Positions 3,489 to 39,171 of a stretch of 39,424 bases of DNA are shown piece after piece. The notes under the pieces were generated by a model, which was not told the DNA's origin, made no database searches, and was given only the letters and a program-made list of their open reading frames with translations. The position numbers and the translations under genes are program-made. Source of the stretch: Defluviitaleaceae bacterium (GTDB taxonomy: Bacteria > Bacillota_I > Bacilli_A > MOL361 > Turicibacteraceae); the NCBI GenBank assembly GCA_009778135.1, contig WRKJ01000094.1, positions 1 to 39,424 on the forward strand, written 5' to 3'. The number at the start of each line of letters is the position of its first letter. The first letter of the stretch is position 1.

Positions 3489-6188
3489 ATGTTAGCAAAA
3501 CTGAAACAGATTGCATTAAAAAGGCGTCAACTGTGGCGAATCATGTTGCCACTGTTGGGTCTTTTAACATTGATTTTTATCGCGCTTATCCATTTGATCA
3601 CCATCTCTATTTATCACAACCAAAGCAACCTTAATCGTTTGGCAACCGGTCGATTAGAGGTGAATTTCGACGTTTTTTACCTCGAAAACGATGCTTTCTT
3701 CGAAAATCCGATTTCACAAAACTTAAATTTTCTCATGTCGTTAACAGATTTCATTGAAGTTGAACCACGTTTTTTGGCACATTTTAGTGAAGCAGTCGAC
3801 GCTTATTACAGCTATACCTCAGAAAAATGTCTCGTCATTCGTTACCGTGGCTTTTCAGGTGGTGAATCAAACCCTGTTGTCTTTGAATCATGTGACCCAT
3901 TGTCAGAAGGAAGGGGTCGTTCAACCGGTCGAGACATGCATCTTCCTCATTTAACTCACAACGAAGCAGTGCCGACTTACCGGATTGTTCCTGATCATCA
4001 TGTTGACATGTATTTAGATTTTGTGACAGCCTATGAACTGAGAACAGGTGGCAGTCGAAACCTCGCACATTTTGTCGCAGAAGTTTCCATCAACTTTCGT
4101 TATACGGTTACCATTCCTGAATGGGATGTGACTGAATCCATCAGCAGACAGTATCATTTTCCGCTTTTAACAGATGTTTATTCATTTATACCGTCAGGCG
4201 ATGCCACATTTGAGCAAACGGTTGAGCTACAAGGCTCACCACCACAACCTGCTTTAGCAAGTGTGATCTTGTTTGTCATGGCTTTTGCTGTCAGTAGCTT
4301 TTTCCTATTCGTGGGGATGAAACAGTTGAATCAAGAGCCCAATGCGTGTCGCAGAACGTTTATCAACCTTTCGAAGAAATATGCCAATGAAATTGTCGCG
4401 TCTAAAGTGTCATTACGAACCCTTGTTACCACCGAATCGTTGCCGTATACATGTATCAAGCTTGATGACTTTAAAACATTACTCAACTTGGCGATCAATA
4501 CCAATCGACAAATTAACAGTTATCACGATGAAACGCACGGCGAATTTGTCGTGGTTTTGCAGCCTTTCATTTATTATTATGAACTTTTATTTACCGAAGA
4601 AGCCACTGAAAGAGAAGAAGAAATGATAGAAGACGTGATGAATGAAAATGTGTTGACAAAGCTGGCTTGGGAACTTGGTGAAGATGGGCGCTTATCGTTG
4701 AGCAAAGGGGTCATACCGTGGGAAGATGATCCAAACCGTTGGGAGAACTGTCGTCACCAAATCACTGACATTGTCTTTACAGAACAGCTGACAATGGGGA
4801 CATCTTTGGCGTCTTTATTCAGCGATTTACCCCAGCTGATGACCATAGAAGGGTTAGCCCATGTTGATACAAGTGCTGTGACGAATATGAGTCATCTATT
4901 TAATGGTGCAACAGGCTTAACCGCTCTAGATTTGTCAAAGTGGCAGACCCAAAATGTCACCGATATGAGCTTGATGTTTGCAAATGCCAAGCAGTTAACC
5001 CATTTAGACCTATCAGGATGGGACACGAGACAAGTGATGGACATGAGTTTTATGTTTTACGCCTCAGATAGGCTTCGGGTATTAACACTAGGCAAATATT
5101 TCAAATTTATCGATTCCTATGCCTGGGAATGTGGCGGTTGGCACCATGCTAGCCTACCAGAAATTAGCAAAACCGACGAATTTACAGGGTATTGGCAAAA
5201 TGTCGGAGAAGGCAGTATTGAAAACCCCATGGGTGAGCATGTCTTCACGAGTTCACAATTCATGGACTGTTTCGATGGTCAAGTGATGGCAGATACCTTT
5301 GTGTGGCAACCAGTTAAAGCAAACAGCCGTTTCTTAAGCTCAAATCACCGTGTTGCAGCCCAGGGTCAATTTGAAAATGGAGCAGACCTTGCCGGTGCTC
5401 AGTGGGAACTTGATGAAGCGGGCACTTTACGAATCGGTGACGGATGGATGAACTGGACTGGCAATGAAAGTCCATGGCATGCTGTTTGTGAACATGTTCA
5501 AACAATCATTTTTACAGGTGCCGTCACGGCAGGCCCATCACTGACTCATTTGTTTAGCGCGTTAAAACATGTCACCCATATAACAGGCTTAACGTATGTT
5601 GATACCCGTCAAGTGCAAGACATGCGTGGCTTGTTTAGGGGAACGAGCAGCTTAGAATCATTGGACTTATTAAGCTGGGATACAAGTCATGTCACCGACA
5701 TGTCACAACTGTTTATGGAAAGTGGACCCTTGTTACTAGATTTATCCAGTTGGGACACCAGCCAAGTGACAACGATGCAAGCCATGTTCTGGGGGGCTGA
5801 CCGTTTAGCCTTACTGGACGTCTCAACCTGGGATACGAGCCAAGTGACAGATATGGAAGTCATGTTCTGGGGTGTTAGTCGTTTAGAATCATTAGACGTA
5901 TCGACGTGGCATACTCACAATGTGAAGCAAGATAGTGGTATGAACATGATGTTCACCCATACAACAGCTTTAACCGAACTGACCCTCGGTGTTTCTTTTG
6001 ACTTTCAAACACAAGCAGAACTGCCTCATATTAACCCGACAGACGTCGTCACAGGCTATTGGCAAAATGTCGGCTCAGGAACGATTGAACATCCACAAGG
6101 GAAATTTATCTTCACAAGCGCCCAACTGATGGAAAAATTCGACGGTAAAACGATGGCAGATACATGGGTGTGGCAACCGATGCGTTGA
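3489..6188 (+). CDS. Membrane protein: DUF5305-like domain fused to two BspA-type (DUF285) repeat blocks
   Basis: 899 aa. A membrane anchor lies at residues ~18-38, an extracytoplasmic domain at ~40-250, and a second TM (ASVILFVMAFAVSSFFLF) at ~256-274. The N-terminal part and the segment after TM2 (VSLRTLVTTESLPYTCIKLDDF, LAINTNRQI, FIYYYEL) resemble DUF5305 proteins, which often sit beside SipW-type peptidases. Two BspA/DUF285 blocks follow, at ~385-600 and ~636-899, with repeated units such as LDLSGWDTRQVMDMSFMF and LDVSTWDTSQVTDMEVMF, a surface-protein repeat family linked to binding. Each block closes with MADT-VWQP. Two membrane crossings would place the BspA blocks on the same side as the N-terminus, which is odd for a surface repeat and may mean one segment is cleaved. 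It probably works with the peptidase in export or assembly of the TasA-like protein; that is inference. Confidence 0.7.
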   Translation: MLAKLKQIALKRRQLWRIMLPLLGLLTLIFIALIHLITISIYHNQSNLNRLATGRLEVNFDVFYLENDAFFENPISQNLNFLMSLTDFIEVEPRFLAHFSEAVDAYYSYTSEKCLVIRYRGFSGGESNPVVFESCDPLSEGRGRSTGRDMHLPHLTHNEAVPTYRIVPDHHVDMYLDFVTAYELRTGGSRNLAHFVAEVSINFRYTVTIPEWDVTESISRQYHFPLLTDVYSFIPSGDATFEQTVELQGSPPQPALASVILFVMAFAVSSFFLFVGMKQLNQEPNACRRTFINLSKKYANEIVASKVSLRTLVTTESLPYTCIKLDDFKTLLNLAINTNRQINSYHDETHGEFVVVLQPFIYYYELLFTEEATEREEEMIEDVMNENVLTKLAWELGEDGRLSLSKGVIPWEDDPNRWENCRHQITDIVFTEQLTMGTSLASLFSDLPQLMTIEGLAHVDTSAVTNMSHLFNGATGLTALDLSKWQTQNVTDMSLMFANAKQLTHLDLSGWDTRQVMDMSFMFYASDRLRVLTLGKYFKFIDSYAWECGGWHHASLPEISKTDEFTGYWQNVGEGSIENPMGEHVFTSSQFMDCFDGQVMADTFVWQPVKANSRFLSSNHRVAAQGQFENGADLAGAQWELDEAGTLRIGDGWMNWTGNESPWHAVCEHVQTIIFTGAVTAGPSLTHLFSALKHVTHITGLTYVDTRQVQDMRGLFRGTSSLESLDLLSWDTSHVTDMSQLFMESGPLLLDLSSWDTSQVTTMQAMFWGADRLALLDVSTWDTSQVTDMEVMFWGVSRLESLDVSTWHTHNVKQDSGMNMMFTHTTALTELTLGVSFDFQTQAELPHINPTDVVTGYWQNVGSGTIEHPQGKFIFTSAQLMEKFDGKTMADTWVWQPMR

Positions 6189-8745: not shown

Positions 8746-10296
8746 TTATTCAATTTTACCAGACATCAAGATTTCCTTTGGACTTAATTCTAATACGAAG
8801 AGCACTGGGACAATAGTGGATAACCCAACGGTAATAAAGCCACCTAATAAATAAAGCATGATAACGCTCGGATTAAGAGAAACGTCAAAAGCTTTCATCG
8901 CTTCATCAATCGTCAGCTCACGCCCAAAGCCTCTCGTTTCTAACACGTTCACTGGTTCCCAGTAAGCTTGGCTTCTCCTTTCTTGTATCAATTCATTTCT
9001 CAACATATGTTGAGAAATTTCGGGTGCGACTACACTGGTAATTAAGACTGCGATTATAAACCCAATAGTAGCTACCATGAAGACTTCGATTAGGACTTGC
9101 ATGACAATTCTTAATTTTCGCTCGCCAAGTGCCAAGTAAATGCCCAATTCTTGGCGACGATCTTTTAAATAAAGTGTAATAAGTAAACTTAGTATGACGG
9201 TGCTTGCACCTGCAGAAAACCATACTGCACGATGAGCCAAATGACGAATCACACTTGTTGATTCATGGACATGGTTAAAGGTACTGGCAAGATTTTCAAA
9301 TGCCCAGAATTCAGGTAAAAATGGTGACGCAGCTGCTTGAAAAGCTTCAAAATATAAAATGTCATAGAGGATCCAAAAGGGCTCATTCATCGTAAGGCGT
9401 TGATTTAGTCTGTCGATATCTATAAAGTCTGCATTAAAAATAGCTTGAAACTCAAAATCGGATGCTATTCCAAGCGTAAACATTTGATGTGTTCGCCAAT
9501 TGGGTGCATACAAAGTATTTAAAATATTCATTCGATTCCAAAAATCCATTTGTTCTGTTGCTTCATACGCAAGTTCAAAAATGCCAACTACTTCAAATTT
9601 AAAAGCCTTGTCTTCCCAGTTGTTATAAGGATGATCCCAGATTTCTTCATCTAATAAACCGATAAAACCACCTTCTGGTATGTTTGCTCCGACGGGTAAA
9701 ACGAAGTGTTCTATATACATTTCAAATATACTACCGATAACGAGTTGATTAAGTGTGGCGAGTTCATAAGAAATCAAAACAGGTGCAATTTCATTTAAGC
9801 TTTCATGAAGCATCTCTTCTGTTGTAAAAGTTCTTCCTTCTCGTAGCGTCATAAGTCCTTCTTCGATATAAATGACTTCTGGATTTGAAACACCATGAAA
9901 CATCACAAAGCTTGTTTCTAATTGCTCGTTGACACCGTATACGTTCCATCCAAAATGACGTGGCATGGCGGAAATGGAATAATCATAATAGCGAACATAA
10001 GGTAGTGACCCGATTTGATGAATTTGGTCTCTCGTCAAGAATTCAAATAAATGTGCTGCATATCCTTGTGATCTTTCTCTTAATGTGTAGAGCTCATTAA
10101 GTGATTCTTCATCGCTGCCTAATGCGATAATAGGTGGCAAGCTCCTTCTCAGATGATCTACCGTATTCGTAAGGGCATTTTCTGCCAAAATAGCACCCAT
10201 CGCTAGGGTACCCAATATGATGATGAGAAACAACAAGGTAATCGTCTTCCCTAGATTTTTAAATAAGCTAATGTTGGCTCTATTCATTATTTTCAT
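8746..10296 (-). CDS. FtsX/MacB-type ABC permease without a neighbouring ATPase
   Basis: 516 aa. TM1 is at ~15-38, followed by a long extracytoplasmic domain of ~300 residues and three C-terminal TMs. Between TM2 and TM3 is the FtsX-family signature (RRQELGIYLALGERKLRIVM), and the protein ends ELSPKEILMSGKIE. Such permeases work with an ATPase of the LolD/MacB type in peptide export, peptide resistance or envelope signalling. No ATPase gene is next to it. The downstream side is a recombination-like junction, so the partner may have been lost or may lie elsewhere. The start ATG 10296 has AAGGA 7 nt upstream (a TTG at 10299 is less well placed). A terminator-like hairpin sits in the leader, 30 bp before the start. 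Confidence 0.75.
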   Translation of the reverse strand: MKIMNRANISLFKNLGKTITLLFLIIILGTLAMGAILAENALTNTVDHLRRSLPPIIALGSDEESLNELYTLRERSQGYAAHLFEFLTRDQIHQIGSLPYVRYYDYSISAMPRHFGWNVYGVNEQLETSFVMFHGVSNPEVIYIEEGLMTLREGRTFTTEEMLHESLNEIAPVLISYELATLNQLVIGSIFEMYIEHFVLPVGANIPEGGFIGLLDEEIWDHPYNNWEDKAFKFEVVGIFELAYEATEQMDFWNRMNILNTLYAPNWRTHQMFTLGIASDFEFQAIFNADFIDIDRLNQRLTMNEPFWILYDILYFEAFQAAASPFLPEFWAFENLASTFNHVHESTSVIRHLAHRAVWFSAGASTVILSLLITLYLKDRRQELGIYLALGERKLRIVMQVLIEVFMVATIGFIIAVLITSVVAPEISQHMLRNELIQERRSQAYWEPVNVLETRGFGRELTIDEAMKAFDVSLNPSVIMLYLLGGFITVGLSTIVPVLFVLELSPKEILMSGKIE

Positions 10297-10327
10297 CAAA
10301 TAGTCCTTCTTTCAAATCAATTAAAAG

Positions 10328-10359
10328 AAAACTTGCTTTGAAAAATAAAAGCAAGTTTT
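10328..10359 (-). terminator. Terminator-like hairpin between the Rgg downstream unit and the FtsX gene
   Basis: AAAACTTGCTTT (10328-10339) pairs perfectly with AAAGCAAGTTTT (10348-10359) around an 8-nt loop. Read on the minus strand it is followed by CTTTTAATTG, a fair U-tract. It would end the short transcript starting near 10510, or act as an attenuator in the leader of the FtsX gene. Confidence 0.65.
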
Positions 10360-10377
10360 TAATAAATCTTCTTTACT

Positions 10378-10488
10378 TCAAACTGAGTTGAGCTGTTTTC
10401 TAGATGCTCCTAACAACATCATAATGAATGGTATAAAACTATTTTCTGTGTCTTTTGTCATAAAAAAATAGGAGAATCTAACATGCAT
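10378..10488 (-). CDS. Possible 36-aa peptide ORF enclosed by an inverted repeat, downstream of an Rgg-site
   Basis: The frame begins MHVRFSYFF, continues MTKDTENSFIPFIMMLLGAS and ends RKQLNSV; an internal ATG at 10461 gives a 27-aa version. The ORF is enclosed by arms CTTCACTGAGTTGA (10501-10488) and TCAACTCAGTTTGAAG (10391-10376), the first ending on the start codon and the second holding the stop. No good ribosome binding site precedes either ATG, so translation is doubtful and the region may be a structured RNA instead. It is listed because it sits in a short transcription unit with an extended -10 (TGGTAAAAT, about 10510-10518), the 23-bp Rgg-associated element upstream and a terminator downstream. 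Confidence 0.25.
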   Translation of the reverse strand: MHVRFSYFFMTKDTENSFIPFIMMLLGASRKQLNSV

Positions 10489-10537
10489 CAACTCAGTGAA
10501 GCCCCTTCATTTTACCATACAATTCGCTAAAAGCTTA

Positions 10538-10560
10538 AAAGTGTTCTATATATCGAATTT
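10538..10560 (-). promoter_or_regulatory. Rgg-associated 23-bp element, downstream copy
   Basis: Read on the minus strand: AAATTC-GATATATA-GAACACTTT. It matches the element at 11439-11461 in 20 of 23 positions and starts immediately after the rgg stop codon. It lies 23 bp upstream of an extended -10 (TGGTAAAAT) whose -35 is poor, the arrangement expected of an activator-dependent promoter. Confidence 0.6.
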
Positions 10561-11427
10561 TCAAGTCTCTTTTGCACTGTTGATTATTTCGTCATACCCC
10601 TGTTGATAATCTCTAGCTAAATTAACACTTCCAACTTTTTCAAAAATATCAATCACATCTTCCATTTTTTTCTTACCTTCATCAATTTTTCCTCGGTAAA
10701 AATCAATTGCACCTGATATATAAAGAAACATGGCTCTTTCGAAGATATCTGTTTCCGCCATCAAATGCTCAGTAGCTTGTCTAAATTTAATCGCATCATC
10801 CACCTCTTTTCGATCAACAAAAATAATCATGGTATTGAGCATAATGGTAATCATTAAGTTTTTGTTTCTTGGAATCTCCTTGTAAAATTTCGTAAATGAC
10901 AACATTGCTTCTGAGAGCTGCCTAATAACAGGACTGCCAAGGACTCTCATGGTGTTGTTATAAAGAAGGAGTTCATAATATGCCCAATCGTAAATGGAGA
11001 CAAGATAATCGGTGATTTTATCCTTTTCTTTTTGAGATAGTGTAAAACCTTTATCAATTTCGCTAATTAAAACTTTGATCATCAGACAATTTAATTCATG
11101 ATAAATATCTTCATTTTTGTTTTTAGCTGTTTCCTCTAAAAGCAGTTTCTTTAAAGCAATTTCGTTTCCAGATTGATAAAGATCAGAAACCTTATGTAGA
11201 ATGCGTTGAAAGCCACTGAATTCGTAATCATTGGCAATATGGATGAATTCTTCGAAAGTTACGCCTATTTTTTCAAGGATATGATAGAATCTCACGAGTT
11301 TTATATCTCTTTCCCCGTTTTCAAAGTCACTGAGTAGAGAAGGGCTTAGGATACCATTAGCCACCTTCCTTTGCGAGAAATTTCTATTTTCTCGAACCTT
11401 TTTAAAAATTTTTCCAAAATCATTCAT
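10561..11427 (-). CDS. Rgg/GadR/MutR-family transcriptional regulator
   Basis: 288 aa. Residues ~4-60 form a Cro-type helix-turn-helix of the Rgg kind (GKIFKKVRENRNFSQRKVAN, SPSLLSDFENGERDI, FYHILEKIGVTFEEF). The remainder is an all-helical TPR-like C-terminal domain that in this family binds short peptides or acts as a sensor. Rgg proteins commonly respond to small hydrophobic peptides encoded next door and re-imported by Opp. The start is the ATG at 11427 (GGTGGTG upstream); the frame extends further but without a better start. Copies of the same 23-bp element flank the gene on both sides and face outward, which points to local targets: the 18-aa ORF on one side and the 10378 unit/FtsX gene on the other. 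Confidence 0.85.
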   Translation of the reverse strand: MNDFGKIFKKVRENRNFSQRKVANGILSPSLLSDFENGERDIKLVRFYHILEKIGVTFEEFIHIANDYEFSGFQRILHKVSDLYQSGNEIALKKLLLEETAKNKNEDIYHELNCLMIKVLISEIDKGFTLSQKEKDKITDYLVSIYDWAYYELLLYNNTMRVLGSPVIRQLSEAMLSFTKFYKEIPRNKNLMITIMLNTMIIFVDRKEVDDAIKFRQATEHLMAETDIFERAMFLYISGAIDFYRGKIDEGKKKMEDVIDIFEKVGSVNLARDYQQGYDEIINSAKET

Positions 11428-11438
11428 AGCACACCACC

Positions 11439-11461
11439 AAATTCTAGATATCGAACACTTT
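11439..11461 (+). promoter_or_regulatory. Rgg-associated 23-bp element, upstream copy
   Basis: AAATTC-TAGATATC-GAACACTTT, ending 6 bp before the -35 of the divergent promoter. It lies 11 bp upstream of the rgg start, so one site could both activate the rightward transcript and feed back on rgg. Same sequence (20/23) and outward orientation as the copy at 10538-10560. Confidence 0.6.
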
Positions 11462-11467
11462 CGGTTT

Positions 11468-11497
11468 TTGCTATGCAATCTGTTACACTTGTATAAG
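11468..11497 (+). promoter_or_regulatory. Promoter divergent from rgg
   Basis: TTGCTA (11468-11473), an 18-bp spacer and TATAAG (11492-11497). Transcription would start near 11504 and end at the terminator 11701-11747, giving an RNA of about 240 nt. Confidence 0.6.
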
Positions 11498-11525
11498 GAT
11501 TAAAACATGAATGGAGGAGAGATTG

Positions 11526-11582
11526 ATGTCTTATTTTGATGCACTTATTCAAAGCCATATTAAGTTTATTTTCAAAATGTGA
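11526..11582 (+). CDS. 18-aa peptide ORF divergent from rgg; candidate Rgg pheromone
   Basis: The peptide is MSYFDALIQSHIKFIFKM: mixed N-terminal half, hydrophobic/basic C-terminal half (IKFIFKM). The ribosome binding site GGAGGAG at 11513-11519 is excellent, with a 6-nt gap to ATG. Promoter, the 23-bp element and a strong terminator complete a dedicated short gene of about 240 nt. Small peptide genes divergent from an rgg are the classical SHP and SIP arrangement in streptococci, and the C-terminal hydrophobic residues are usually the signal. This one lacks the typical SHP Gly-Gly or DIIIIVGG end, so it may be a new class, or the RNA rather than the peptide may matter. Downstream the RNA can also form a perfect 7-bp hairpin at 11656-11675. 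Confidence 0.5.
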   Translation: MSYFDALIQSHIKFIFKM

Positions 11583-11700
11583 TGATCTAAAAATTTTATC
11601 ACACCCCTTGGAATAAAGCAAGTGAACAGGAGATAAAAGTGTCATTTTTTACATGAGATGGTCGAAATACCATCTGAATTCAATGTACATCGTCATTATT

Positions 11701-11747
11701 AAGCCAAGCTTTCAGAGAATTTGATGAAAGCTTGGCTTCATTTTTTT
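11701..11747 (+). terminator. Strong intrinsic terminator of the short transcript divergent from rgg
   Basis: AAGCCAAGCTTTCA (11701-11714) pairs perfectly over 14 bp with TGAAAGCTTGGCTT (11725-11738), loop 10 nt, followed by CA and seven T. No conventional gene precedes it, so it marks the end of a real short transcript. Confidence 0.9.
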
Positions 11748-12398: not shown

Positions 12399-12527
12399 AT
12401 GGTTAAAAAGAAAAGACTTATTTTGAAGATGGCATCAGTGCTCATCACATTTGCAATGACGGTTCCAACGAATGGTAGTCTTGCGGTCGTGGGCGAGCCT
12501 CAATTGCCGAGAAAGCTAAACAAATAA
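12399..12527 (+). CDS. AgrD-like cyclic autoinducer precursor peptide with Ser in the ring position
   Basis: 42 aa. A basic, amphipathic N-terminus (MVKKKRLILKMASVLITFAM) is followed by TNGSLAVVGEPQLPRKLNK. AgrD precursors have the same three parts: a membrane-binding helix, a short core whose Cys or Ser closes a ring on the last residue, and an acidic/Pro tail of the form (D/E)xPxxPxxL. By comparison with S. aureus AgrD-I (CDFIM before DEVEVPKEL), the core here would be SLAVV before GEPQLPRKL, so the ring would be a Ser lactone. TGGGGG lies 7 nt before ATG and a sigma-A promoter is upstream. It converges on the LytTR/7-TM operon, with a shared terminator. No AgrB processing protease is seen in the window. 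Confidence 0.65.
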   Translation: MVKKKRLILKMASVLITFAMTVPTNGSLAVVGEPQLPRKLNK

Positions 12528-12578
12528 AAAAGAAGACAGATGGAAATCATTGATTTATTCCAACATGTCTTCTTTTTT
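12526..12578. terminator. Bidirectional terminator between the AgrD-like gene and the 7-TM gene
   Basis: AAAAAAGAAGACA (12526-12538) pairs perfectly with TGTCTTCTTTTTT (12566-12578). The loop is 27 nt. The hairpin overlaps the last codons of the minus-strand membrane protein and starts at the AgrD-like stop codon. Confidence 0.7.
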
Positions 12579-13370
12579 GGTGGTATGCTTGTTCTGTTCA
12601 TCATTAAATAGAGGCAATTCTACATCAAACTCACGCATCGTTGTCTTAAAATGTGCTTTAAACACGTCAATATCTTCTTCATTTTCCATGTCAAGCCATA
12701 AACCAAGGAGGCGACTCTGTAACTTTTTGATGGAAATGATTGTAGTAACGCTTTTGTATAATTTAATAAAAGCCGGAATAAGGATAAAACTTGCTAATAC
12801 GAGACCAAGGGTTAGAAGTAGAAAATAAGAAAGACTGTATTCAAAGTTTAGGATTGCTGTTGGGATAAAAAATGCTAATGTTGTGAAACAGACAAGGAGT
12901 TTGAGTACAACATGGGTTTGAACGGCGTTAAACCATTTATACCAATGGAGCTTTTGACATAAAATGATAATCATAACTGTTGAAGTAAATTGTACGAGTA
13001 AAAAAAGAAGAGGTGTATAAATGTTAAATATTTGATCAGCTAACCAAATGCCACCAGCCAAGGGGAATTGGATGAAAAGCAGGATCAATAAGGATAGGAT
13101 ATAAATCATGATTAAGTCGCTTAAATGAGCACGTTTAATGATCGTTTTGGTCATGATTGATAAGAGTAGAAAACTTATAATCCTAAAAAGATGACCATCA
13201 AAATAGATGACAGGTGCTAATGCAATGACATAGATCAAACAAAGTAGCGTGTGAAACCATTCGACACGTATATATCGTTTCATCATAGCGTGAGAAATAA
13301 AATACATCATAACAAAGTCCATGAAGTTTAGAGCAAATTGTACGATCCACCAGGTTAAGCTTTCTGTCAT
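12555..13370 (-). CDS. 7-TM membrane protein resembling an AgrC/ComD sensor without the kinase domain
   Basis: 271 aa with about seven membrane segments over residues ~5-210 (first FALNFMDFVMMYFISHAMM, last LLTLGLVLASFILIPAF), then a ~60-residue cytoplasmic tail. Sensor kinases of the HPK10 group have the same kind of membrane half, but here the HisKA-like RHDYxN motif and the HATPase N, G1 and G2 boxes are absent and the protein ends cleanly at a terminator. It follows the LytTR gene by 16 nt, with AGGAG 10 nt before ATG 13370. Two readings: a kinase-less peptide sensor, or a membrane inhibitor of the LytTR partner as in HdrRM/BrsRM of S. mutans. A hidden frameshift is unlikely because the terminator lies immediately behind it. 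Confidence 0.6.
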   Translation of the reverse strand: MTESLTWWIVQFALNFMDFVMMYFISHAMMKRYIRVEWFHTLLCLIYVIALAPVIYFDGHLFRIISFLLLSIMTKTIIKRAHLSDLIMIYILSLLILLFIQFPLAGGIWLADQIFNIYTPLLFLLVQFTSTVMIIILCQKLHWYKWFNAVQTHVVLKLLVCFTTLAFFIPTAILNFEYSLSYFLLLTLGLVLASFILIPAFIKLYKSVTTIISIKKLQSRLLGLWLDMENEEDIDVFKAHFKTTMREFDVELPLFNDEQNKHTTKKEDMLE

Positions 13371-13386
13371 GTTAAGTCGTCTCCTC

Positions 13387-14163
13387 TTACATATTTTTCC
13401 GTAGTTCATGAAGCACTGCTTTTTTGTAACTTTCACTCATGGAAATTTCCATTGGATAGCCATTTGGCTCGGTATAAATCAATTCAATGCATTGAGCTTC
13501 ACGTGATTTATGAACATGTCTAATCATCATTTTGTTCACAGCATAATCCCGATGGCATCTCAGAAGGGTATTTGATTGGTTATGCTTCGTTAAAAAATGA
13601 GTGATGGACAGTGGAATTTCTATTTCTTTAGACAAGTTTCTGACAAAGTCATAAAGATGCAATGTGGTTTTACCTGCATGTCCGTGAACATAAGCGACTT
13701 CTTCCAAATAAAACCTAACCGTTTTTATATTCGTGTCGATATCAATGATTTGAAAACAAGGTCTTAAATTTAACGCAGCTTTACTAAAAAAACCTTTGAT
13801 ATTGGAGAAGAGTGTTTTCTTTGTTAGACATAAAATGGGATAGTATTTTTGGAAAAGGATGGCTTGATATTTGTGATCTTCGTGGTCCATCACGGTTATC
13901 ATGGTTTGATGTGGCGCTATTTTTTTTATGAGCTCGATTAAGTCTTCCCCATGTCCAGCTTCGTCTTCCCAGTCGAAATAAAAGCAAGAAATATCGATGT
14001 CTTCTCTTTCAATGGTTTTTCGTGTCTCTTTAAAGGTCGTTGTTGTGATGATGTGCGCATAAAGACCAAGTGACGCAAAAATAGTCGGGGCTTTGTCAGA
14101 AAGGTAGCGCAAAACATTTGGATCGCTATGTGCAATAAGGACGCGTATGATCACCTTTTTCAT
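13387..14163 (-). CDS. LytTR-family response-regulator-like protein with degenerate receiver
   Basis: 258 aa. The C-terminal ~110 residues are a LytTR DNA-binding domain (VRFYLEEVAYVHGHAGKTTL, HDLL-type core, LLRCHRDYAVNKMMIRHVHKS, ISMSESYKKAVLHEL), as in AgrA and ComE. The N-terminal ~120 residues have the receiver fold order, but the acidic pair is reduced to IAHSD; the phosphoacceptor Asp may persist in CFYFDWEDE and the Lys in LTKK. Phosphorylation is therefore uncertain. ATG 14163 is preferred over TTG 14169, given AGGA about 10 nt upstream. It is the first gene of a two-gene unit with the kinase-less 7-TM protein, so it may be controlled by protein contact rather than phosphotransfer. 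The AgrD-like gene is a plausible target. Confidence 0.75.
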   Translation of the reverse strand: MKKVIIRVLIAHSDPNVLRYLSDKAPTIFASLGLYAHIITTTTFKETRKTIEREDIDISCFYFDWEDEAGHGEDLIELIKKIAPHQTMITVMDHEDHKYQAILFQKYYPILCLTKKTLFSNIKGFFSKAALNLRPCFQIIDIDTNIKTVRFYLEEVAYVHGHAGKTTLHLYDFVRNLSKEIEIPLSITHFLTKHNQSNTLLRCHRDYAVNKMMIRHVHKSREAQCIELIYTEPNGYPMEISMSESYKKAVLHELRKNM

Positions 14164-14332
14164 TGTCAATCTTCCTAATTCTCTGTCTTCTGCCCCAAAG
14201 TCAGTATAAAAATCCTTTCAAATCAAATTATACCAGACTTTCCTTCATTCGACAATAACGTTTTGATGATTCACAATAAAAATTCGAGTAGGTAAGTCAT
14301 AAATTTAAAAATAAAGAAATTTTTCGAAAAAC

Positions 14333-33337: not shown

Positions 33338-34342
33338 ATGATGGCAGATGTTTTATTAGAACTTAAAAATCTGAAGACATCGTTTAGGGTTAAAGATGAT
33401 TACTTTGCTGCGGTGGATGATGTGACTTTAACAGTGAACAAGCGTGAAGTACTAGCAGTTGTTGGAGAATCAGGGTGTGGAAAAAGTGCCCTTGCTTATT
33501 CTATCATGAAGCTTCATACCCGTGCGCAGGTTGAAGGGAAGATTGAATTTAAAGGAGAAGACATCGTTACGGCGACGCCTGGGCGATTGACGCAACTTAG
33601 AGGAAAAGAAATGGGGATGATTTTCCAAGATTCTTTATCAGCATTAAATCCATTGATTAAAATTGGGGATCAGATCGCAGAAGCGATTTATTTACATGAT
33701 CAAAAAATTTCCAAATCAGCGTTAAAAGCGCGCGTCATGGAATTACTAACGCAAGTGGGGATTCATCGTGCAGAAAGCGTTTATATTCAATATCCGCATC
33801 AATTATCAGGCGGGATGCGACAACGCGTTGTCATTGCCATGGCCATTGCGAATAGTCCAGATTTACTCATTGCAGACGAACCAACCACTGCCCTTGATGT
33901 GACCATTCAAGCGCAGATTTTAGATTTAATTAGAAAGTTAAGAGATGATCTTGATGCGGGTGTCATTTTAATTACCCATGACCTTGGTGTTGTCGCTGAA
34001 ATGGCCGACCGTGTCGCTGTGATGTACGCAGGACAAATTGTCGAAATTGGGACTGTGTATGATGTGATGGAAAATCCACGTCATCCTTATACCCGTTCGC
34101 TGCTTCATTCTATGCCATCTGCCATTGCAAGCAAAGATGAGAAACTTCATGTCATTGAAGGCGTCGTTCCCTCTTTACCACTTATTCCAAGAGTCGGATG
34201 TCGTTTCAAAGATAGAATGGATTGGATTCCAGAATCAGCACATGAAGCCCATCCAACATTAAAAGAAATAACACCTGGACATTTCGTTCGCTGTTCATGT
34301 TATCAACATTTTCATTTTCCTGAGGAGGGTGTGAACGCATGA
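33338..34342 (+). CDS. oppD: Oligopeptide ABC transporter ATPase OppD
   Basis: 334 aa. Walker [10 protein letters not shown] near residue 47, Q-loop [15 protein letters not shown], signature [16 protein letters not shown], Walker [15 protein letters not shown], switch His [11 protein letters not shown], then the OppD/F C-terminal extension ([29 protein letters not shown]). It energises peptide import together with OppF. Two ATGs are adjacent (33338, 33341), both behind AAGTAGG. The stop overlaps the start of oppF (ATGA), so the two ATPases are coupled. Confidence 0.95.
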
Positions 34343-35256
34343 TTGAAGTTAAAGATTTAAAAGTACACTTTCCCATTCGAAAAGGATTTTTTAGAAGAGT
34401 CGTTGGTCATGTTAAAGCGGTTGATGGGATCAATTTAAACATAGAAGCTGGAAAAACATATGGTTTAGTTGGAGAATCAGGATCTGGAAAAACGACAACA
34501 GGACGTTCTATTATCGGTCTTGACCATGTAACAAGTGGTGAAATTTTGTTTGAAGGTCAAAAACTTGATTTAAGAAAGAAAGCTTCTCGAGATGTACAAA
34601 TGATTTTTCAAAATCCATTTTCATCTTTGAATCCGAAAAGACAGGTTTTAGATATTGTCGCTGAGCCACTCCGTAATTTTGAGCAGTTAACCCCAGCGCA
34701 AGAACTCGAACGGGTTCAAGAATTAATGTCCATCGTTGGTTTGAGCCCGGAATCTATTTATAAATATCCCCATGAATTTTCAGGTGGTCAACGGCAGAGA
34801 ATCGGGATTGCGCGTGCCATTGCGTTAAAGCCAAAGTTGATCATTGCAGATGAGCCTGTATCGGCATTAGATGTCTCAGTGCAAGCACAAGTTTTAAATT
34901 TCATGAAAGAAATTCAAAAAGAATTAGGACTTACTTATTTGTTTATTAGTCACGATTTGAGTGTTGTTCGGTACATGTGCGACCATATTGGGATCATGTA
35001 TAAAGGCCGCTTCGTTGAATCTGGGACTGCTGATGACATCTTTGAAAACCCGCAGCACATTTATACGAAACGTCTGCTAGGGGCAATTCCAAGTACAGAT
35101 CCACGAAAACGTGATGAGTTGATGGCGAATCGTCGTAAAGTGAATGCAGAGTTTGAGGCTTTGTCAAAACAGTATTTTGATGAAACAGGTTTGGCATACC
35201 CATTGAAGAAAATTTCAAGTACGCATGCAGTTGCGATGCTAGGAGAGGTGAAGTAA
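34339..35256 (+). CDS. oppF: Oligopeptide ABC transporter ATPase OppF
   Basis: 305 aa. Begins [20 protein letters not shown], typical of OppF. Walker A GESGSGKTT, Q-loop VQMIFQNPFSSLNPKR, signature FSGGQRQRIGIARAIA, Walker B LIIADEPVSALDVS, switch His ISHDLSVVRYM and the OppD/F end (HIYTKRLLGAIPSTDPRKR). It forms the ATPase pair with OppD. It starts 4 nt inside oppD and ends 1 nt before oppB. Confidence 0.95.
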   Translation: MIEVKDLKVHFPIRKGFFRRVVGHVKAVDGINLNIEAGKTYGLVGESGSGKTTTGRSIIGLDHVTSGEILFEGQKLDLRKKASRDVQMIFQNPFSSLNPKRQVLDIVAEPLRNFEQLTPAQELERVQELMSIVGLSPESIYKYPHEFSGGQRQRIGIARAIALKPKLIIADEPVSALDVSVQAQVLNFMKEIQKELGLTYLFISHDLSVVRYMCDHIGIMYKGRFVESGTADDIFENPQHIYTKRLLGAIPSTDPRKRDELMANRRKVNAEFEALSKQYFDETGLAYPLKKISSTHAVAMLGEVK

Positions 35257-35257
35257 A

Positions 35258-36226
35258 ATGTTGCAATTTACACTCAGACGTTTTCTTATTATGATTCCGC
35301 AGCTGATTGTGTTAAGCTTTGTCGTCTTTCTTATTGCACTCGCGATGCCGGGGGATGCTTTGACGGGTACACTAGATCCGAACCTCACAGTTGAAATGCT
35401 TGAAATACAAAGAGAATTGCTGGGATTAAATAACCCCTGGTATGTGAGGTATTGGGATTGGATTGTTGGTATTGTGACGCGATTTGACTTTGGACGTTCA
35501 TTTACTTGGCAAATGCCTGTTACAGCAATTATTGGTGAACGGCTCGGAAACACACTTCGCTTATCTACATTAACACTTGTTATCATGTATGCCATTGCGA
35601 TTCCACTGGGTATCATTAGCGGTCGCCATCATGATACATGGAAAGATAAAATCATTACTGCTTATACGTATCTTGGATTCGGAATGCCAACCATGGTTGC
35701 GGGTCTTTTACTGCTTTTCTCATTTGGATTTAATCTCGGCTGGTTCCCAACTGGCTTGAGTGTCGCCCCAGGGATGTCTCCTGATATGGGTTTACCTTAT
35801 CATCTGAGTCGGTTGCATCATTTAATTTTACCAGCTTTATCTGTGGCGCTTATTACAACAGTGGGCACCGTGCAATATCTGCGTGGTGAAATTATTGATT
35901 TAGAGCAAAGAGAATTTATTTTAACAGTGAGAGCCAAAGGTGCTGATGAAAATAGAGTCTATAATAAGCACATCTTTAGAAATGCGCTACTTCCAATTGC
36001 GGCCTTTCTGGGCTTTCAAATTGCTTTTTTGATTGGTGGGTCTGTTTTAGTCGAAACAGTTTTCAGTTTTCCGGGAATAGGTGGTCTTTTTATTGGTTCC
36101 ATAACGGGACGTGATTTTTCGGTGATGATGTCTCTTGTGTTACTGTTTGGAGCTGCAACAATTGTTGGATCATTTCTGTCAGATGTGATCATGATGATGG
36201 TTGATCCGAGAATTGAGATTGAATAG
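35258..36226 (+). CDS. oppB: Oligopeptide ABC transporter permease OppB
   Basis: 322 aa, six TM segments. The start MLQFTLRRFLIMIPQLIVLS is typical of OppB, as are DFGRSF, GERLGNTLRLSTLTLV and the EAA loop (EFILTVRAKGADENRVYNKH) that docks on the ATPases. It forms the translocation pore with OppC. AGGAGAGGTGA precedes ATG. It lies 1 nt after oppF and 11 nt before oppC. Confidence 0.94.
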   Translation: MLQFTLRRFLIMIPQLIVLSFVVFLIALAMPGDALTGTLDPNLTVEMLEIQRELLGLNNPWYVRYWDWIVGIVTRFDFGRSFTWQMPVTAIIGERLGNTLRLSTLTLVIMYAIAIPLGIISGRHHDTWKDKIITAYTYLGFGMPTMVAGLLLLFSFGFNLGWFPTGLSVAPGMSPDMGLPYHLSRLHHLILPALSVALITTVGTVQYLRGEIIDLEQREFILTVRAKGADENRVYNKHIFRNALLPIAAFLGFQIAFLIGGSVLVETVFSFPGIGGLFIGSITGRDFSVMMSLVLLFGAATIVGSFLSDVIMMMVDPRIEIE

Positions 36227-36237
36227 GAGGACATGAT

Positions 36238-37122
36238 ATGGCTAAAAAAACAACAGAGAAAAAGAAGATGTCGACACTAGAAATCTTAAAGCGTGAATTT
36301 TCTCAAGACATAGGTGCTTTAATTGCTTTAGGTGTGATTGTTATCGCAGCCTTGTTTGTCATCATTGTGCCGCTTTTTATTGACCAAGAATATATGCTTG
36401 CTGTTAATCCAAGAAGACTCAATCAACCACCGTCAGCAACACACTGGTTAGGAACAGAAATAGGTGGTCGTGATGTCTTTGCATTATTGGCTATTGGAGC
36501 GAGAAGCTCGCTTTCTATTGCTTTAGCTGTTACATTAATTTCGGGATTTGTTGGCATTTCCCTTGGGGTTACTGCTGGATACTTTGGGGGTAAATTCGAT
36601 AACATGATCATGCGAATTGTTGATTTTATTTCAACATTGCCAGCTTTGGTGATGATCATTGCGTTCTTGTCTTTGGTCTCTGGCTTTAATGTTGTTAGCT
36701 TTACCCTCATTATGTCGTTTTTCAGTTGGGCTGGGATCATGCGTCTCGTGAGAGCAAGAGCGATTCAAGAAAAAGAATTGGAATATATTCAAGCATCAAA
36801 AACATTGGGAACACCTCATTTGAAAACCATTTTCAAAGAATTATTTCCTAATATCAGTTCTGTGATGATTGTTAATATGACGCTAGCAACAGCAAGTAAT
36901 GTGGGACTTGAAACTGGCTTATCATTTTTAGGTTTTGGATTTCCTTTTGATGAGCCAAGTTTAGGCTCTTTGATTTCAGCAGCAAGTAATGCTGTTGTTT
37001 TGCAGCATCGATGGTGGATTTGGTTACCGGCTGCTTTATTCGTGTTGATTCTAATGTTGTCAATTAACACCCTTGGTCGCACGCTAAATCGAGCAACAGA
37101 TGCGAGATTGCGTCGAGGTTAA
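36238..37122 (+). CDS. oppC: Oligopeptide ABC transporter permease OppC
   Basis: 294 aa, six TM segments. OppC landmarks: HWLGTEIGGRDVFALLAIGARSSLSIA, LVRARAIQEKELEYIQASKTLG (EAA loop) and the end SINTLGRTLNRATDARLRRG. N-terminal tail of basic residues before TM1. GGAGG lies 7 nt before ATG. A strong hairpin separates it from oppA. Confidence 0.94.
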   Translation: MAKKTTEKKKMSTLEILKREFSQDIGALIALGVIVIAALFVIIVPLFIDQEYMLAVNPRRLNQPPSATHWLGTEIGGRDVFALLAIGARSSLSIALAVTLISGFVGISLGVTAGYFGGKFDNMIMRIVDFISTLPALVMIIAFLSLVSGFNVVSFTLIMSFFSWAGIMRLVRARAIQEKELEYIQASKTLGTPHLKTIFKELFPNISSVMIVNMTLATASNVGLETGLSFLGFGFPFDEPSLGSLISAASNAVVLQHRWWIWLPAALFVLILMLSINTLGRTLNRATDARLRRG

Positions 37123-37160
37123 CATTTAAATGAATGAATCCAAATGGTCAAATACGGCTT

Positions 37161-37210
37161 TTGAGAGATAGCTTTGTGGCATAAAAGTTATGTGCAAAGC
37201 TATCTCTCAA
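37161..37210 (+). promoter_or_regulatory. Large intercistronic hairpin between oppC and oppA
   Basis: TTGAGAGATAGCTTTG (37161-37176) pairs perfectly over 16 bp with CAAAGCTATCTCTCAA (37195-37210); the loop can add CATAA/TTATG. It is followed by AAACAAAACC, not a T-run, so it is not an ordinary terminator. It may protect the 5' end of oppA mRNA after processing, or partly block transcription, letting the binding protein be made in excess over the membrane parts. Confidence 0.7.
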
Positions 37211-37260
37211 AACAAAACCTATTGATCATTTGAGAAGATGATATTCGAGGAGGAATACAT

Positions 37261-39171
37261 ATGAAAAAAAGAAGTAAAATATTAGCTTTGTTTAGTTTGG
37301 TATTCTTATTATCACTATTTTTGGTCGCATGTGGTAACGGTGAAGAGGACGGTAATGAACCAACTACTGATGAACCAGCTACTGAAGAAACGACTGGAGA
37401 CAATGGAACAGGTGAGGACAATGGTGATGTTACTGGTGCTATTCTTCCACCACATATTGAAGATTTGCTTAATACGAGTATGCCTGCTACTGATGAGATG
37501 GTTGAAGGTGGGATTTTAAGATTTGCGCGTGTTATGCCGACGCCATTTGAAGGTATTTTACATTCTTTATGGGCTAATTCAGCCAATGATTCAAATATCC
37601 ACGAGTTCTTTGCTGGTGCTATTATAAGTACTGATCAAGATTTTTTATTAGAACTTGGAGATGATGCGCGTGGCGCTGCCATTCCTGAAATTTCAGAAGA
37701 TGGCTTAACGATTACGTTTACGATTCGTGATGGGGTTTATTGGCACGATGGAGAGCCTGTAACGGCACGTGACTGGCTGTTTACTTATGAAATCATGGGA
37801 AGTCCAGAATACTTGGCAGCTGGTGGGCAACGCTTTGGGCAACAAGGTGAGCGCTCAATTGTTGGGATGATGGATTTCCATGAAGGGAATGCGGATTATA
37901 TCGCAGGGATTGAAGTTATTTCAGAACGTGTGCTTTCAATTACTTATGAAGAAGTAATGCCACTTCGTACGACTTACTTCCCAAGACCGACACCTTATCA
38001 TCTTTTTGCTGACATCCCAATTGATGAAATGGAAACTCATCCACTTGTTCGTACAGATGCTGCAGTTGGATTTGGTCCATTTATCCTTGATACCATCGTC
38101 CCAGGAGAGTCAGTGACATTTACACGTAATGACAACTATTGGAGAGGAGCGCCAGTTTTAGATGGTGTTGAATTCCGAGTTGTTCATCCAAATGTCATTG
38201 GTGAAGAAATGGCAGCTGGGACTGTAGACATTGCGCACACATTCGAAGAAGGTGCTTTTCCTTATTTCAGTGACTTGTCAAATGTAACCTTCCTTAAAGA
38301 TGTTGCTTTCGTTTATAACTACGTTGGGTTTAGACTCGGCTACTGGCGTGCGGTTTATGATGAAGATGGTGAAGTCATCGGTGGAGAATCTGTATTAGAC
38401 CCAGATGCAACGATGGCAGATGTTAACTTACGTCAAGCAATGTGGATGGCAGTTGATGGTGATTTGATTGCAGAAGCGTGGTTTAATGGCTTGAGATGGG
38501 ATGCTGAGTCTTTAGTGCCACCTGCATTCAATTTGTTCCATGATCCGACAGTTAGTCGTCCACCTTATGGTTTAGATGGCGCTAATGATCTATTGGATGA
38601 CGCTGGCTTTGCTATTGTTGAAGGCTATCGTGCAAATCCTGATGGAACGCCACTTGAAATTAACTTCTTTGGTGGGGTTGCTGGAGACAGCGTTGCACAA
38701 GCATTCCACCATTATCTATTAGAGCAATGGCGTTCACTTGGTTTAAATGTGATTCCCCATTTTGATTTAGAATTCAATGCTTATAACGATTTATTTAATG
38801 TTAATGTTGATTATGATGGCATTGATGTGTTTACGGGTGCTTGGTCAACAGGAACAAACCCAAGTCCATATGGCTTATACGGACGTACAGCTGCTTTCAA
38901 CCGTTCACGTTATGTGAGTGAACGTAACGATGCGTTACTTGCTCGAATTGATTCTGCACAAGCGGCGTTAGATCCTGAATATAGAGCAGCAGCGTTTTCT
39001 GAATGGCAAGCTTATATGGCTGAAAATGCTTCATTATTCCCATTCTTATATCGATTTGCCTTTATTCCGGTTAACAACCGTGTTGTTAATTACAGAATTA
39101 ATGGAACACATACAGCCGCAGATGGTTGGCATTTGGTTGGATTTACAAGTGAAACACCATATGTAGATTAA
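37261..39171 (+). CDS. oppA: Oligopeptide-binding lipoprotein OppA
   Basis: 636 aa. The signal MKKRSKILALFSLVFLLSLF is followed by LVACGNG, so Cys24 is the lipid attachment site. An acidic Thr/Glu/Asp/Gly linker (~residues 26-60) is followed by a family-5 extracellular solute-binding domain (ITFTIRDGVYWHDGEPVTARDWLFTYE, GFGPFILDTIVPGESVTFTRNDNYWRGAPVLDGVEF, NLRQAMWMAVDGDLIAE). It captures peptides outside the cell for OppBCDF. GGAGGAAT lies 8 nt before ATG. Last gene of oppDFBCA, followed by a terminator. Confidence 0.94.
   Translation: MKKRSKILALFSLVFLLSLFLVACGNGEEDGNEPTTDEPATEETTGDNGTGEDNGDVTGAILPPHIEDLLNTSMPATDEMVEGGILRFARVMPTPFEGILHSLWANSANDSNIHEFFAGAIISTDQDFLLELGDDARGAAIPEISEDGLTITFTIRDGVYWHDGEPVTARDWLFTYEIMGSPEYLAAGGQRFGQQGERSIVGMMDFHEGNADYIAGIEVISERVLSITYEEVMPLRTTYFPRPTPYHLFADIPIDEMETHPLVRTDAAVGFGPFILDTIVPGESVTFTRNDNYWRGAPVLDGVEFRVVHPNVIGEEMAAGTVDIAHTFEEGAFPYFSDLSNVTFLKDVAFVYNYVGFRLGYWRAVYDEDGEVIGGESVLDPDATMADVNLRQAMWMAVDGDLIAEAWFNGLRWDAESLVPPAFNLFHDPTVSRPPYGLDGANDLLDDAGFAIVEGYRANPDGTPLEINFFGGVAGDSVAQAFHHYLLEQWRSLGLNVIPHFDLEFNAYNDLFNVNVDYDGIDVFTGAWSTGTNPSPYGLYGRTAAFNRSRYVSERNDALLARIDSAQAALDPEYRAAAFSEWQAYMAENASLFPFLYRFAFIPVNNRVVNYRINGTHTAADGWHLVGFTSETPYVD

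Follow-up and report, generated by a model that had tools for sequence, protein, structure and literature searches.

Paired outward-facing elements at the two ends of an rgg gene are candidate Rgg operators

Two copies of a 23-bp element lie at the exact ends of an rgg gene in the 39,424-nucleotide stretch of DNA that was analysed (hereafter the window), and both point away from the gene. We consider it probable that the encoded Rgg binds both copies and activates both outward promoters, coupling a transcript for an 18-aa peptide with a unit comprising a structured RNA and a permease gene, probably under peptide control in a circuit that resembles Rgg/peptide quorum sensing. The reading of the elements as Rgg sites is partly supported by the anatomy of the locus, which comprises a genuine Rgg protein, matched spacing to extended −10 boxes, and a comparable outward pair at one distant rgg locus. 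Against this reading count the lack of an ortholog or of a second genome with the element, the weak palindrome, the ordinary promoter available on the right, and a peptide that is neither an SHP nor an LCP.

The rgg gene and its flanking elements

The rgg gene (10561-11427, −) encodes a 288-aa regulator of the Rgg/GadR/MutR family, with an XRE-type HTH and an Rgg C-terminal repeat domain, as seen with Pfam, TIGR01716 and phmmer. The C-terminal domain matches Pfam Rgg_C (PF21259) at 2.9e-44 and 151 bits (cut-off 27), TIGR01716 is matched at 5.9e-47 and 160 bits (cut-off 36.9), and HTH_19 and HTH_3 both score above cut-off in the N-terminal part. With these Rgg/GadR/MutR domains in place, the product is a genuine Rgg, and it is the only one in its own genome. 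The closest relatives of solved structure are SHP receptors, namely Rgg2 of S. dysgalactiae (4yv6, phmmer 4.1e-30), Rgg144 (7zcv) and Rgg3. The match to RopB is weaker, and the matched RopB chains cover the C-terminal part only, while ComR is absent among the PDB sequence matches down to E 0.001. An AlphaFold model computed from the single sequence is poor in the HTH (mean pLDDT 65.9), so the structural match only backs up the sequence result.

A first-pass annotation of this DNA had reported the pattern AAATTC-N8-GAACACTTT at 11439-11461 on the plus strand (right copy, AAATTCTAGATATCGAACACTTT) and at 10538-10560 on the minus strand (left copy, AAATTCGATATATAGAACACTTT), and we find exact matches to AAATTCNNNNNNNNGAACACTTT at both positions. 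The reported agreement of the two copies in 20 of 23 positions is borne out, and all three mismatches fall inside the N8 spacer. The placement is also as described: the right copy lies 11 bp 5′ of the rgg ATG, the left copy abuts the rgg stop codon with no gap, and each points outward. The palindromic character of the element is weak, with five of seven possible pairs formed in one copy and six of seven in the other, and a score of 5/7 is also reached by 19% of random local 23-mers.

Several controls were used to assess how unusual this arrangement is. When the rgg flanks of approximately 265 bp were shuffled, a pair agreeing in at least 20 of 23 positions in either orientation appeared in 2 of 3,000 shuffles, and an outward pair appeared in none of 10,000 shuffles of the 120-nt outward flanks. 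Nowhere else in the window do two inverted 23-mers that agree in 20 positions or more lie within 3 kb of each other. The bare pattern at three mismatches is no rarer than chance (3 matches, with 4 expected), and so the evidence rests on the pair and its placement. Elsewhere in the 2.3-Mb genome there is no further copy with zero mismatches, and sites with up to two mismatches show no excess over a reversed-pattern control (15 vs 27). If the spacer letters shared by the two copies are included in the pattern, the only genomic sites with up to three mismatches are the two that flank rgg, and the pattern scan of the genome thus gave no comparable site that would point to a regulon elsewhere. Taken together, the shuffles, the uniqueness within the window and the lack of a third genomic copy indicate a real pair that is local and linked to rgg.

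A motif scan of 85k genomes returned four isolated matches only (in Campylobacterales, Bacteroidales, Ruminococcus and one further bacterium), which we provisionally take as chance; the same scan of viral contigs returned no match. Three-mismatch matches in family relatives are scattered: two share one position within a conserved 437-aa gene, and the remainder lie inside other genes or in single gaps; these too are taken as chance.

Outward promoters and the two transcription units

The elements were further described in the first-pass annotation as pointing toward promoters of short, terminator-ended units, and this holds. Aligning both outward flanks on the element brought out an extended −10 box on each side. 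On the right this is TGTTACACT (11481-11489, +), with its hexamer 22 bp past the element and no aligned −35; on the left it is TGGTAAAAT (10509-10517, −), with its hexamer 23 bp past the element and no −35. Terminators follow on both sides: at 11698-11741 (+), 17-nt arms with 94% complementarity precede a T run, and at 10359-10328 (−) an intrinsic terminator separates the left unit from the permease gene. When the elements were held fixed and the rest was shuffled, extended −10 offsets agreed within 1 in 11 of 20,000 trials, an optimistic figure, since the choice of pattern followed inspection of the sequence. Measured between centres, the element is about 37 bp upstream of the −10, a position from which a class II activator would contact polymerase.

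A site followed on both sides by an extended −10 without an aligned −35 looks like an activator-dependent promoter, and this layout suits activation. It has been described for promoters activated by Rgg, RopB and ComR (PMC4162386, PMC10518010). The speB P1, Pshp2/3 and sigX promoters have no canonical −35 and carry the regulator site in its place (PMC4162386), and in S. salivarius a 43-bp fragment bound by RopB lies directly 5′ of the −35 of the divergent peptide promoter (PMC10518010). In this literature, operators of the Rgg type adjoin, on its upstream side, a −35 that is missing or weak at divergent peptide promoters (PMC10518010, PMC4162386). The right unit also contains an alternative promoter, TTGCTA-18-TATAAG (11468-11497, +), with 4/6 and 5/6 matches; it resembles a sigma-70 promoter fairly well and might be used with no activator present.

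The first-pass annotation had proposed a peptide gene on one side and, on the other, a transcript next to the permease. The right unit stands as a good peptide gene, but the description of the left one needs correction, as that unit is likelier to be a structured RNA or leader. The right transcript carries an 18-aa ORF, MSYFDALIQSHIKFIFKM (11526-11582, +), divergent from rgg and preceded by the strong Shine-Dalgarno sequence GGAGGAG (11513-11519, +; AGGAG with a spacing of 6). As a helix the peptide would be mildly amphipathic, with a moment of 0.42 that is matched by 3.8% of shuffles. MSYFDALIQSHIKFIFKM may be the signal of the Rgg, or it may be an effector peptide under Rgg control. Another candidate ORF, MNGGEIDVLF (11507), was rejected because its Shine-Dalgarno sequence overlaps the −10. 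The right transcript also contains a five-codon GTG ORF, MSFFT (GTG-TCA-TTT-TTT-ACA; 11639-11656, +), with a good AGGAG at a spacing of 6, which is too short to judge as an LCP.

The predicted left transcript (10326-10502, −) is about 177 nt long, with a long hairpin from its predicted 5′ end (10502-10376) followed by the terminator. The RNA folds far better than its shuffles (z = −4.82, 0/200). The sole Shine-Dalgarno-like stretch of the unit, AAGGGG (10507-10502), lies upstream of or at the predicted start at about 10502, and so a 37-codon ORF in this unit would be poorly translated if the extended −10 is used. The simplest reading, which we favour over a peptide gene, is of a putative stable small RNA or structured leader, from which transcription would continue past the terminator into the permease gene. 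A search of the left unit against Rfam gave one match only, far below threshold, and the full stretch has no second occurrence across the order. We rejected the idea that the unit is a repeated element: it is present as a single copy, and the lone partial match elsewhere is limited to its terminator end. Predicted pairing among the left RNA, the right RNA and the rgg, permease and AgrD-like mRNAs was no better than for shuffles.

Beyond the left terminator, after a gap of about 30 bp, lies the gene for an FtsX-like ABC permease (8746-10296, −; Pfam FtsX, 2.9e-09). The only promoter-like match in this gap runs into the start codon, and the permease gene is probably transcribed by read-through from the left unit. 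The gene is one member of an expansion that is large and specific to the lineage, with about 27 related places in its own genome; tblastn gives 27, 26 and 35 places in three related genomes (G000, G001 and G002, respectively), and few or none in most others. Several of the paralogs follow either a gene for a small exported protein of 110-135 aa without a Pfam match or a lipoprotein-like gene.

Some further features of the window were observed. An ORF at 12402-12527 (+), MVKKKRLILKMASVLITFAMTVPTNGSLAVVGEPQLPRKLNK, resembles an AgrD precursor, with a leader and then an EPQLPRKL tail in which Ser replaces the usual Cys. It adjoins genes for a LytTR regulator and a membrane protein, and no AgrB was seen. 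The membrane protein (12555-13436, −) is like the sensor part of an AgrC-type kinase without the kinase domain, and it may be a truncated copy, since open frames of about 410 aa contain its relatives in G000 and G001. At approximately 579-870 there are several copies of a tandem repeat whose period is 62 bp.

Proposed mechanism and competing explanations

Binding, activation, peptide sensing, read-through and autoregulation are steps that we infer from what is directly seen, namely the sequences, their placement, the promoter spacing, the terminators, the protein family, and a layout common to one relative. In the mechanism we propose, both 23-bp elements would be operators of the Rgg encoded between them. 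The protein, probably dimeric and probably with a small peptide bound, would sit just upstream of the would-be −35 positions and recruit RNA polymerase at each outward promoter. Rightward, this would give a transcript of about 250 nt encoding MSYFDALIQSHIKFIFKM, which could serve as a signal in positive feedback, as in Rgg/SHP, or as an effector. Leftward, it would give a structured RNA of about 175 nt that runs to the terminator, with read-through into the FtsX-like permease gene. The right operator falls in the roughly 35 bp next to the rgg start codon, so its occupancy may also limit transcription of rgg itself. A more specific version, in which an Rgg from outside the streptococci and lactobacilli jointly switches on an 18-aa amphipathic signal of neither SHP nor LCP type and a 5′-paired RNA gating a permease, is offered tentatively and seems to us rather unlikely; if true, it would join peptide quorum sensing to an RNA-level switch.

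A different role for Rgg would be mainly that of a repressor or autoregulator, acting without peptide signalling in the manner of MutR, GadR or an orphan Rgg. The right copy would then block the promoter of rgg, and the left copy would block transcription leaving rgg. It fits with this that the right element contains TAGAAT, a possible rgg −10, only 11 bp from the start codon, that the right unit has a usable ordinary promoter, and that the peptide lacks SHP and LCP features; MutR and GadR are indeed Rgg-like proteins without a known pheromone (PMC9765709). A TAGAAT promoter would, however, have no −35 and would leave rgg with a very short 5′ leader. Repression also leaves the outward orientation at both ends unexplained, and the 22/23-bp spacing to an extended −10 without an aligned −35 on both outward strands suits activation instead, so that we judge a mainly repressive Rgg to be unlikely. 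Binding by another regulator altogether, for example the LytTR-domain protein encoded at 13387-14169, is less probable again. That protein and the AgrD-like peptide ORF are encoded 1-3 kb away, but no copy of the element is found near either, and the genome has the two sites precisely at the rgg ends and at no other place.

The remaining explanations need no regulator. Read on the top strand, the two copies are inverted repeats with one gene between them, and the other genomes of the genus and family lack an rgg except for a remote one in G002, as could be imagined for a small mobile cassette with terminal inverted repeats. We reject this very improbable origin, as the repeats enclose no transposase, are not bordered by a target duplication (AAGCTTA on the left, CGGTTTT on the right) and have no second copy in the genome. 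The arms could instead pair at the RNA level, closing the rgg mRNA into a long-range stem, and as RNA these 23-nt arms are 87% complementary; such a stem requires that rgg transcription start upstream of the right element, and we give it scarcely any credence. The confinement of the mismatches to the spacer argues against both the mobile element and the RNA stem, being what is expected of a protein site and not of a helix, and neither idea accounts for promoters at a fixed distance from the elements. Mere chance similarity has the common occurrence of the bare three-mismatch pattern in its favour, yet an outward pair that is absent from all 10,000 flank shuffles, has no equal in the window and stands at matched promoter spacing makes coincidence just as hard to credit as the stem. 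Activation by the Rgg from both elements thus remains our preferred reading.

Relatives and comparison with known systems

Protein searches found no ortholog of this Rgg in samples of the genus, family, order, class and phylum, in 85k genomes, or in viral contigs. Across the genomes of the genus, family and order, the only relative is the remote one in G002, and Rgg proteins are rare in the lineage, occurring in 3 of 392 sampled genomes with the own genome included. The best relatives by identity are streptococcal (32%, S. salivarius), together with a protein from a faecal contig filed as phage (MT836412.1; 29%, 2e-30). In that contig, a 14-bp perfect palindrome, TTGCATATATGCAA, lies just past the rgg stop (in 3852-3934) and is followed by an MFS transporter gene, with no upstream partner of the palindrome at the locus. 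The phage label looks doubtful because the neighbouring genes resemble sugar ABC transporter permeases.

We looked for paired elements at 18 distant Rgg or Rgg-like loci, in one of which (L004) the frame was unusable. A comparable, though weaker, outward pair was found at only one, a plasmid locus of S. equinus (CP020439.2) whose Rgg is 28% identical, and so the pair is not a universal feature of Rgg genes. In gene order, a divergent ORF of SHP-like type (MNISIKRFLMILLEIIIIIAL, preceded by a strong Shine-Dalgarno sequence) comes first and rgg second; next are a short ORF similar to RiPP precursors and a hairpin like that of a terminator, with radical-SAM genes beyond. The outward pair is 16 bp long; GAGCAAATATGGGACA precedes the rgg start codon by 13 bp and GAGCAGATTCGGGACA follows the stop codon at 2 bp, so that the offsets from the rgg ends are +13/+2 vs +11/+0 in the window. 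The extended −10 boxes (TGNTANNNT; TGATAAAAT, TGATATACT) begin 40 and 38 nt past the element start, compared to 42 and 43 nt in the window. The 13/16 match of this pair is by itself within chance (12.8% of shuffles), and the locus is suggestive because the offsets and the layout agree. The likeness thus extends to the divergent ORF, rgg, the terminated downstream unit with a peptide ORF in the plasmid, the outward pair and the extended −10 distance, while the plasmid differs in its RiPP-like precursor with radical-SAM genes beyond, in the sequence of its element, and in the low identity of its Rgg.

The streptococcal Rgg/SHP systems (Rgg2/Rgg3 and Rgg144; Group I/II, with divergent shp and rgg) share with our locus the protein family and the best structural matches. 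Here too a short ORF with a ribosome site, that at 11526-11582 (+), adjoins and diverges from rgg. An oligopeptide importer of the Opp/Ami kind is present in the same window, in the form of a complete Opp4-like set (33338-39171, +) whose best models are OppD, OppF-type, Opp4B, Opp4C and Opp4A, all below strict cut-offs. The site also lies just upstream of a missing −35 (PMC4162386, PMC13361665), clearly so on the left and, on the right, for TGTTACACT, given the presence there of the alternative promoter. The differences are in the peptide, the second operator and the lineage, which is distant. An SHP has a basic leader, a hydrophobic C-terminus and a conserved D or E, whereas MSYFDALIQSHIKFIFKM lacks both a KK leader and a long hydrophobic C-terminus, carries K and H in its C-terminal half, and has D only at position 5. 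The second operator abuts the rgg stop and faces a structured RNA and a permease gene.

RopB with its LCP (PMC10518010) resembles our locus in having a divergent short ORF with a strong Shine-Dalgarno sequence and no obvious leader, and an operator of similar length (25-26 bp in RopB) just upstream of the −35. LCPs, however, are leaderless, hydrophobic and mostly 8-10 aa long, whereas MSYFDALIQSHIKFIFKM is an 18-aa charged peptide with D, H and two K, and the RopB half-sites GTTACGTNT and ATGTAACATATT (PMC10518010) have no match in our element. As the peptide lacks the defining features of both SHPs and LCPs, we do not claim membership of either class. In the RtgR/RtgS system of pneumococcus, the probable site is likewise an inverted repeat in two promoters, and an ABC transporter is controlled; there, both promoters drive rtgS1 and the pheromone has a WxW motif (PMC7018657). 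ComR differs in that our protein has no ComR among its PDB sequence matches and the GACA...TGTC box was not found in the element.

The cited Rgg literature gave no description of this operator sequence, of a copy placed after the stop and facing a structured RNA and permease, or of an Rgg system in this lineage. Rgg operators are known for few systems, nearly all of them streptococcal. Our locus, from a lineage with few Rgg proteins, offers a precise candidate operator in two copies that are matched in their promoter spacing, and points to a candidate signal peptide beyond the SHP and LCP classes. The parts are of a known kind, an Rgg regulator with a divergent short ORF, and their arrangement suggests a rule for finding Rgg targets, which is to seek outward repeats at both ends of rgg.
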